DNA from: Malaciobacter mytili LMG 24559
GTDB lineage: Bacteria; Campylobacterota; Campylobacteria; Campylobacterales; Arcobacteraceae
Direction of reading: 5' to 3'
Length of the DNA stretch: 64,000 bases
Assembly (NCBI RefSeq): GCF_003346775.1
Contig: NZ_CP031219.1
Span: 2,108,001-2,172,000 of the forward strand
In this document: positions 2,611-3,987 of the stretch, piece by piece
How the letters are laid out: each line of letters opens with the position of its first letter
Numbering within the stretch: the stretch's first letter is position 1
Made by a program: the position numbers and the translations under genes
Notes under the pieces: model-generated
Database searches by the model: none
What the model was told of the DNA's origin: nothing
What the model saw: only the letters and a program-made list of their open reading frames with translations

Positions 2611-2648
2611 AAAAGTACCTCTTTGGTCAAGGGGTACTTTTTTTTATA
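2611..2648. terminator. Bidirectional terminator between aroC and the NifX-like gene
   Basis: Perfect 9-bp stem, AAAAGTACC at 2611-2619 pairing with GGTACTTTT at 2633-2641, followed by more T on the + strand and preceded by A/T-rich sequence. It lies between two convergent genes and the stop of the minus-strand gene is directly beside it, so it can end both transcripts. Confidence 0.85.
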
Positions 2649-2970
2649 TCTTTTTTAATTTATCTTGAACAAAATCACTATATAAAGATAAAACTTTTTT
2701 TCTATTTTCTTCAACAAAAATAGATACTCCATTTTTCTTTAATTCTTCAATAGGTAAACCTTCTGTTTGAGAAACAACTATAACATTAAAATTATTCTTC
2801 TTAAACTCTTTTACAAGATCTTTTGAAGTTCTTTTTTTATCTAACATCTCTACAGAACTAATTGTTTGTCCAGTAAGATTTAAAATAGTAAAATATGAGG
2901 CTTCATTTATATTTGAAGCAACTTGTGACATGTAACTTAGATTTTCAACTGTAGGAAAGACTATTCGCAT
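2644..2970 (-). CDS. NifX/NafY-like cofactor-binding domain protein
   Basis: A 108-residue stand-alone protein with the layout of the dinitrogenase iron-molybdenum cofactor domain (NifX/NifB C-terminal fold): MRIVFPT first strand, YFTILNLTG second strand, then NVIVVSQTEG and a final helix-strand GVSIFVEENRK. Members bind metal-sulfur cofactors or precursors, but many small versions have no known partner. No nif genes are in the window, so a nitrogenase role is not implied. It is divergent from a DUF134 gene whose own tail looks NifX-like, which supports a functional link. Confidence is high for the fold and low for the substrate. Confidence 0.7.
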   Translation of the reverse strand: MRIVFPTVENLSYMSQVASNINEASYFTILNLTGQTISSVEMLDKKRTSKDLVKEFKKNNFNVIVVSQTEGLPIEELKKNGVSIFVEENRKKVLSLYSDFVQDKLKKI

Positions 2971-3072
2971 TTTATACCTTTTATCAAATTTTTAAAACAA
3001 TAAAAAGGATTTTTGTAAAAACTTAAAAAATTGATTATATATATAAAAAAGTTTTTACAAAAATAATGGTGT

Positions 3073-3078
3073 TATAAT
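3073..3078 (+). promoter_or_regulatory. -10 element of a promoter driving the non-coding stretch
   Basis: Perfect TATAAT preceded by T-rich runs, as usual for Campylobacterota sigma-70 promoters. Transcription should begin near 3083-3086, about 310 bases before the next coding start and right at the left arm of an inverted repeat. Confidence 0.65.
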
Positions 3079-3081
3079 CTT

Positions 3082-3231
3082 GATTGTCCCAAGAGAGGAG
3101 TGTTATTTTGTATGTTAGGCTAGACAACTAAACAAAATGGACAATCAAATTATATGTTAATATATTCTTCAAACCTAACCCCAATTCAAGTTCAACTAAG
3201 AATAAATTTGAGAGAGCGGGTTCACTTAGTT
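3082..3231 (+). ncRNA. Candidate structured RNA or leader of unknown family
   Basis: A promoter at 3073-3078 points into this gene-free stretch. GATTGTCC (3082-3089) pairs with GGACAATC (3139-3146), and stacked directly inside it ATTTTGT (3105-3111) pairs with ACAAAAT (3132-3138), leaving a one-sided 15-base purine-rich bulge (3090-3104). The 20-base loop contains GTTAGG (3114-3119), which is complementary to CCTAAC (3174-3179) downstream, a possible pseudoknot. A further stem joins AACTAAG (3194-3200) and CTTAGTT (3225-3231). No clear U-run terminator was found. It is either an independent RNA or a long leader of the DUF134 gene; it matches no family I recognise. Confidence 0.4.
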
Positions 3232-3357
3232 TAATTAAAAATTTATGTGCTATTCATAAAATTTTCATTTTGAGTTAAGTCTTATGAACATATGACCGAA
3301 TAATATCATTTATTTGAGCATATGTCAAGTACTTTTTTAAATTTTTCAATAAAATTA

Positions 3358-3366
3358 TGATAAAAT
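3358..3366 (+). promoter_or_regulatory. Extended -10 promoter of the DUF134 gene
   Basis: TGATAAAAT fits an extended -10 (TGn followed by TAAAAT). It lies about 30 bases before the start codon and upstream of an AAGGAG ribosome site at 3387-3392. This would let the gene be transcribed without the upstream structured stretch. An imperfect repeat with CATATG cores (3289-3295 and 3320-3326) lies just upstream and could be an operator. Confidence 0.55.
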
Positions 3367-3396: not shown

Positions 3397-3987
3397 ATGC
3401 CTAGAGAAAAATTAGAGAGAAAATTAGATTTAAAACCTGTGTGTAAATACTTTGGACCCAAAGATACAAAAGCTAGTGAAGATGTGGTTTTACTACATGA
3501 AGAACTAGAAGCAATACATTTAATGGATTCATTTTGTATGTATCAAGAAGATGCAGCGAAAAAAATGAATGTATCAAGAGCAACATTTGCAAGAATTATA
3601 AAAAGTGCAAGAAAAAAAATCTCTTTGGCATTAATAACTGGTAAAAATATAAAAGTACATGAAGTTAAAAATGAATTTCATATAGCAATATGTTCAAATA
3701 CAAAAGATGAATTTGAATACTCTGAGGCTGAAGCAAAATATATATGGATTATATTTATAAAAGATTATAAAATTAAATCTATTAGTTGCATAAATAATCC
3801 AATGTTTGAAAATGAAGAAGAAGCTACATGTAATGTACTGCCTGATGTTTTATATGATTATGGAGTTAATTATTTTATGATAAAAGATATTGATTATGAT
3901 TTAAAAATTTCTTTAATTGCAAAGGGAATTTATCCTATTTTAAAAGAAGAGATACAAATAGATAATTTAGTAGATATTTTTCAATAG
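3397..3987 (+). CDS. DUF134 helix-turn-helix protein with NifX-like C-terminal domain
   Basis: The N-terminal half (about residues 1-90) is a DUF134 protein: MPREKLERKL start, the helix ELEAIHLMD, and a sigma-like helix-turn-helix DAAKKMNVSRATFARII. The C-terminal half (about 92-196) has strands and helices in NifX order, with FHIAICSNTK, YIWIIFIKDYK, then LPDVLYDYGVNYFMIKDI and IAKGIYPILKE. DUF134 genes often sit next to NifX/NifB-type genes; here one such gene is divergent and a second copy of the domain appears fused. A role as a DNA-binding sensor of a metal-sulfur cofactor is inference. AAGGAG at 3387-3392 supports the start. Confidence 0.75.
   Translation: MPREKLERKLDLKPVCKYFGPKDTKASEDVVLLHEELEAIHLMDSFCMYQEDAAKKMNVSRATFARIIKSARKKISLALITGKNIKVHEVKNEFHIAICSNTKDEFEYSEAEAKYIWIIFIKDYKIKSISCINNPMFENEEEATCNVLPDVLYDYGVNYFMIKDIDYDLKISLIAKGIYPILKEEIQIDNLVDIFQ

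Follow-up and report, generated by a model that had tools for sequence, protein, structure and literature searches.

The gene-free stretch between a NifX-like gene and a DUF134 regulator gene in Malaciobacter mytili LMG 24559 carries a conserved block that, judged by sequence comparison, is a structured RNA on the minus strand. It is probably a DUF134-controlled small RNA of about 290 nt that acts in trans, with read-through into the NifX-like gene in some genera. The window analysed is a 64,000-nucleotide stretch of contig NZ_CP031219.1, and all positions refer to it. An earlier, sequence-only reading had proposed an unrecognised structured RNA in this gene-free stretch; covariation in the Arcobacteraceae bears out the RNA itself, whereas its strand, promoter and extent are revised here.

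Strand and conserved structure

The block lies at the same place in all six genomes of the Malaciobacter group (g1), and the other five, Malaciobacter halophilus among them, match it at E values of 1e-52 to 1e-80. It was compared with the corresponding loci of Halarcobacter and its relatives (g10) and of other genera (g3, g4, g17 and g18). Within the Malaciobacter group, mean identity is 94% in hairpin 1 versus 63% in the adjoining 5' leader; similarly, identity of hairpin 1' in g18 is 96%, versus 73% in the leader. Because an arm was misplaced when g1 and g18 were aligned automatically, the features shared by these two groups were compared by hand on extracted arms.

The stem differences in the six-genome alignment are mostly one-sided, and almost all of them give A·C when read on the plus strand and G·U when read on the minus strand. 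Therefore, the RNA is assigned to the minus strand. For instance, the outer helix pairs on that strand in 9/9 sequences (six from the Malaciobacter group and three from g18), with eight G·U cells that are A·C on the plus strand and no wobble cells in the opposite sense (G·U on plus only). The consensus fold of hairpin 1' has 18 G·U cells on the minus strand and no A·C, a count that leans toward that strand because the structure was fitted on it. Additionally, the 87-mer spanning 3069 to 3155 on the minus strand folds better than its shuffled versions (z = -3.07; 0/200 shuffles as good). In single sequences, the plus fold is sometimes as good as or better than the minus fold.

At the corresponding position, the 16 genomes of g10 have a hairpin of different appearance. 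On the minus strand 98.4% of its cells are paired, six pairs are changed on both sides, and none of 500 shuffles is as good. When that structure is read on plus, the paired share falls to 94.6% of cells, because 14 cells that are G·U on the minus strand alone turn into A·C, against two the other way. Thus, the block has both of the features generally expected of a structured RNA, namely two-sided changes that preserve its helices across the Arcobacteraceae and strand-specific wobble pairs.

Layout of the predicted transcript

The RNA is predicted to span 3003 to 3293 on the minus strand, its ends being placed from the promoter and hairpin positions. Transcription would begin some 7 nt past the -10 element and would end in the U-rich tract behind a terminator-like hairpin. 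The putative hairpin 2' (3194 to 3231, minus strand) would pair AACTAAG with CTTAGTT around the C/U-rich loop GUGAACCCGCUCUCUCAAAU; it is the further stem noted previously. It is invariant in Malaciobacter, and because its arms never vary, covariation does not settle its strand. Hairpin 1' (3073 to 3154, minus strand) consists of the outer stem UAUAAUUUGAUUGUCC / GGACAAUCAAGAUUAUA, an inner stem, a loop with GUCUAGCC and the bulge CACUCCUCUCUUGG. The terminator-like hairpin (3000 to 3064, minus strand) is an inverted repeat rich in A and T, UUUUUGUAAAAACUU ... AAGUUUUUACAAAAA, with UCCUUUUUA behind it. This repeat is long, perfect and highly stable between 3063 and 3010 (z = -5.17), has a loop of 22-28 nt, and changes in pairs on both arms across g1, g3, g4 and g18; its U tract is missing in one g18 genome. 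C/U-rich segments (CACUCCUCUCUU and CCCGCUCUCUC) are exposed in loops and bulges, and across the predicted transcripts of 29 genomes C/U-rich tetramers outnumber their complements by 153 to 42.

Two elements are common to the RNAs of g1 and g18: a loop of GUCUAGCC or AUCUAGCC, and a bulge rich in C and U (CACUCCUC, CAUUCCUU). A search pattern combining the two finds the locus in 6/6 g1 and 3/4 g18 genomes, and its four scattered single hits elsewhere in the family are taken as chance. No copies of the block beyond chance were found elsewhere in its own genome or in the family. The g1 and g18 RNAs and the g10 RNAs are not alike in sequence, and a covariance model of the g10 hairpin gave no real matches in other genera, the g1 RNA included; since this model misses the others, a family that crosses genera (except g1 with g18) rests on position, promoter and layout. 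One g3 genome (G033) has a homopolymer of ten C residues (C10) as the loop of the minus-strand RNA upstream of DUF134, at locus L056, with shorter C runs in G032 and G034, and this loop could be hypermutable.

The supposition that the RNA belongs to no known family agrees with searches of Rfam 15, which returned no match at or above the gathering threshold on either strand of the window or in seven relatives. Permissive Rfam scans gave chance matches far below threshold or none, and 6S RNA (RF00013) was discarded as a candidate, since its model matched nothing in the entire genome even at E values as high as 10.

Promoter and candidate DUF134 operators

The predicted RNA promoter (3300 to 3328, minus strand) consists of TTGACA at 3328-3323, a 17-nt spacer and the extended -10 TGA-TATTAT, with TATTAT at 3305-3300. 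It matches the consensus at 11 of 12 positions, was the best of 44 sites in a 7 kb scan, and is kept in five genera of the Arcobacteraceae (g1, g3, g4, g10 and g18). The DUF134 gene (3397 to 3987, plus strand) has a divergent promoter of its own with the -10 TAAAAT (3361 to 3366, plus strand; extended TGA), conserved in g1, g3, g4 and g10. This is the separate extended -10 (TGATAAAAT) that had been noticed before DUF134. The idea that the block might be a leader for DUF134 is not supported: DUF134 is transcribed the opposite way from this conserved promoter.

Two CATATG palindromes are proposed as DUF134 operators: one (3319 to 3324, within TTGACATATGCTCAA) overlaps the -35 element of the RNA promoter, and the other (3289 to 3294, within GGTCATATGTTCA) lies over the predicted RNA start. 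The arrangement TTGACATATG...TGNTATAAT...CATATG is found upstream of DUF134 in g1, g3, g4, g10 and g18. In 399 genomes of the order, the double-CATATG promoter pattern occurs at 48 places and a reversed control pattern at none. A DUF134 gene adjoins all 30 of the places inspected; therefore, the paired palindromes are very probably the DUF134 operator. Where the gene on the other side was identified, it was cydA, NifX, both, or the DUF134-divergent RNA. Palindromes placed over a -35 element and a start site have the usual geometry of repression; we infer that DUF134 binds them, and it most likely represses the RNA. The locus has the layout of a regulator-divergent small RNA, with back-to-back promoters and, as far as sequence can tell, sites associated with the neighbouring regulator. 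In Malaciobacter halophilus (G078; L064 / L035), about 50 bp are deleted, including the -10 element and the second CATATG, whereas the RNA hairpins are intact; this is a natural promoter variant.

Relation to the NifX-like gene

The NifX-like gene (2644 to 2970, minus strand) follows the RNA on this strand, and its Nitro_FeMo-Co domain scores below the Pfam cut-off. A strong terminator-like hairpin (2611-2641) lies between this gene and the convergent aroC gene. If the RNA were a cis-acting leader of NifX, riboswitch-like or an attenuator, then its terminator-like hairpin would decide whether transcription reads through. This is the main rival to a small RNA, though we regard it as unlikely. 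In Malaciobacter, Halarcobacter and g4, the gene immediately following on that strand is NifX, with the terminator-like hairpin before it, and bases left unpaired in the g10 hairpin hardly vary across the 16 genomes, as in an aptamer. However, g3 and g18 retain the promoter, hairpins and terminator-like repeat where NifX is not downstream; all that follows there is the tail end of a gene in convergent orientation (aroC, or in one genome an apparent transporter). The arrangement of a transcription-controlling riboswitch is found only in g1, g4 and g10, as g3 and g18 have no downstream gene on that strand. Retention of the RNA in g3 and g18, which the leader reading does not explain, speaks for an independently acting product. 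Additionally, no Rfam riboswitch matched, and g17 has this promoter driving NifX across a short gap with no room for such an RNA. The g17 loci (L063, L146 and L147) have DUF134 and NifX in divergent orientation and two or three copies of CATATG spaced by about 32 bp, an arrangement that is possibly the state before the RNA arose.

The plus-strand reading

An RNA on the plus strand that starts at the TATAAT of 3073-3078, as first proposed, is very improbable, although the strings on which it was built are all present. TATAAT, with an extended TG-T, occurs in the window and in most Malaciobacter, the arms of the stacked stem (GATTGTCC/GGACAATC and ATTTTGT/ACAAAAT, within 3082-3146) are present, as is the 15-base purine bulge (CAAGAGAGGAGTGTT), and hairpin 2 folds slightly better on the plus strand. 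However, the plus-strand fold is no better than those of shuffled sequences: z is +0.81 for the 158 nt of 3083-3240 (160/200 shuffles fold as well or better), -0.21 for 3083-3150 and -1.26 for the 65-base hairpin of 3082-3146. The asymmetry between G·U and A·C favours the minus strand in three genera, and the plus-strand structure with its TATAAT promoter was rejected on this asymmetry together with the shuffles. TATAAT is absent as such from other genera, g3, g4 and g18 among them. The outer stem on the minus strand extends to about 16 pairs that include it, so that TATAAT forms the 3' side of this stem and is conserved only in that role; the equivalent arm of g18 and g4 differs in letters and still pairs (in g4 by inspection). 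The pseudoknot between GTTAGG and CCTAAC was likewise discarded, since its pairing on the minus strand is broken in five of the six Malaciobacter species by a change of C to T in CCTAAC, although the resulting GTTAGG/CTTAAC pairing would survive on the plus strand as G·U.

Least probable, at a very slim chance, is a DNA element (protein-binding repeats or a cruciform) that makes no RNA, for the long perfect inverted repeat at 3010-3063 and the DNA palindromes certainly present upstream of DUF134 would suit one, but conserved loops alternate with covarying stems and a strand-specific wobble bias is expected only for RNA, because a DNA site needs no G·U pairs.

DUF134 and cytochrome bd

The DUF134 protein combines a helix-turn-helix with a NifX-like domain (Pfam DUF134, PF02001; E 1e-16; 61.8 bits versus a Pfam cut-off of 27), and in its structure model (pLDDT 82.5) the C-terminal half matches the NifX-like folds 2yx6, 1o13 and 9ian. 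Near the block, then, lie a NifX-like gene and a DUF134 gene that shares the NifX fold. Given this combination, a metal-sulfur cofactor signal is plausible, and the NifX-like domain of DUF134 plausibly binds such a cofactor. No functional study of DUF134 as a regulator was found in the literature searched.

Exact matches to TGACATATGTTCA are few in the genus and sit next to the second DUF134 gene that each genome carries. Throughout the Malaciobacter group (six genomes), this second gene diverges from DUF4492-cydA (cydA encoding cytochrome bd subunit I) with the same paired-CATATG promoter; the locus is G000:C1:905342-905382 (L100, L143). The DUF134 paralog is thus a candidate regulator of bd oxidase in Campylobacterota. 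Its cydAB promoter, in Malaciobacter and other Campylobacterota, has the same layout as that of the RNA (TTGACATATGTTCA...TANNAT...CATATGTTCA) but drives the protein operon DUF4492-cydA rather than an RNA.

Cytochrome bd was considered as the purpose of the RNA and rejected: the RNA persists in genomes that lack cydA (g18, g4 and part of g10), and two g10 cydA operons that were inspected carry no double-CATATG site. Families of the same order outside the Arcobacteraceae (L150-L157) have DUF134 with the same paired-CATATG promoter. At two of these loci (L154 and L155), NifX, DUF4492 and cydA stand together downstream of it, suggesting that the ancestral unit may have been DUF134 / NifX-cydAB.

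Proposed mechanism and comparison with known systems

In the small-RNA model, the RNA would be transcribed from TTGACA-N17-TATTAT (3328-3300), divergently from the adjacent DUF134 gene. The DUF134 protein would bind the two CATATG palindromes and most likely repress the RNA until its signal or ligand state changes. Once made, the RNA would fold into two hairpins with the C/U-rich single-stranded segments CACUCCUCUCUUGG and CCCGCUCUCUC exposed, and would end at the AT-rich terminator-like hairpin. It would probably act in trans, base-pairing with Shine-Dalgarno regions rich in G and A, and read-through would also feed the NifX-like gene in Malaciobacter, Halarcobacter and g4. Among the long matches, near-complements of both C/U loops lie almost entirely inside reading frames and none lies at a ribosome-binding site, so that no conserved target emerged from them.

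A more tentative proposal, which we hold to be possible rather than probable, is that these RNAs form a new Arcobacteraceae small RNA family under a metal-cofactor-sensing DUF134/NifX-like repressor, and that in Halarcobacter, for example, the DUF134 signal is passed mainly by RNA pairing. Halarcobacter genomes each have one operator site in the order-wide scan. If the proposal is true, then genera of the Halarcobacter type would use mainly RNA pairing rather than direct control of the cytochrome bd genes.

DUF134 is a widespread family of unknown function, and it gains here a candidate site, paired CATATG on TTGACATATG...TANNAT promoters, and candidate targets, namely the cytochrome bd operon, NifX and a small RNA. 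A strand-assigned RNA family is added in a phylum where Hfq-free regulation by small RNAs is an open question. The analysis also illustrates that wobble asymmetry can correct a strand call made from a single sequence.

In the OxyS / OxyR system, a regulator gene and a small RNA diverge from a single intergenic region, where their promoters stand back to back and have operator sites in common. DUF134 and its RNA are likewise divergent, in a shared intergenic region with proposed operator sites; however, OxyR is a LysR-type regulator and DUF134 has a NifX-like domain, the geometry here is likely that of a repressor, and the RNAs are unrelated in sequence.

The sX13 RNA of Xanthomonas is Hfq-independent and has several stable hairpins whose C-rich loops are believed to recognise G-rich motifs close to the start of translation by pairing (PMC3771888). 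Similarly, the DUF134-divergent RNA has several hairpins that present C- or C/U-rich loops, as in sX13 and RepG, but these are CUCCUC/CUCUCUC rather than CCCC, and the likeness to sX13 is one of loop layout. RepG and NikS are trans-acting small RNAs of Helicobacter pylori, a campylobacterotan without Hfq; NikS is repressed at its promoter by a metal-sensing regulator, and RepG pairs with homopolymeric G repeats (PMC8322730). The C10 loop of G033 is reminiscent of repeat-targeting RNAs such as RepG. However, the regulator (NikR) and the RNA of that system are unrelated to those described here, and DUF134 is encoded next door to its RNA. Overall, the DUF134-divergent RNA resembles OxyS-type RNAs, sX13 and RepG/NikS, a likeness that need not mean common descent with any of them.
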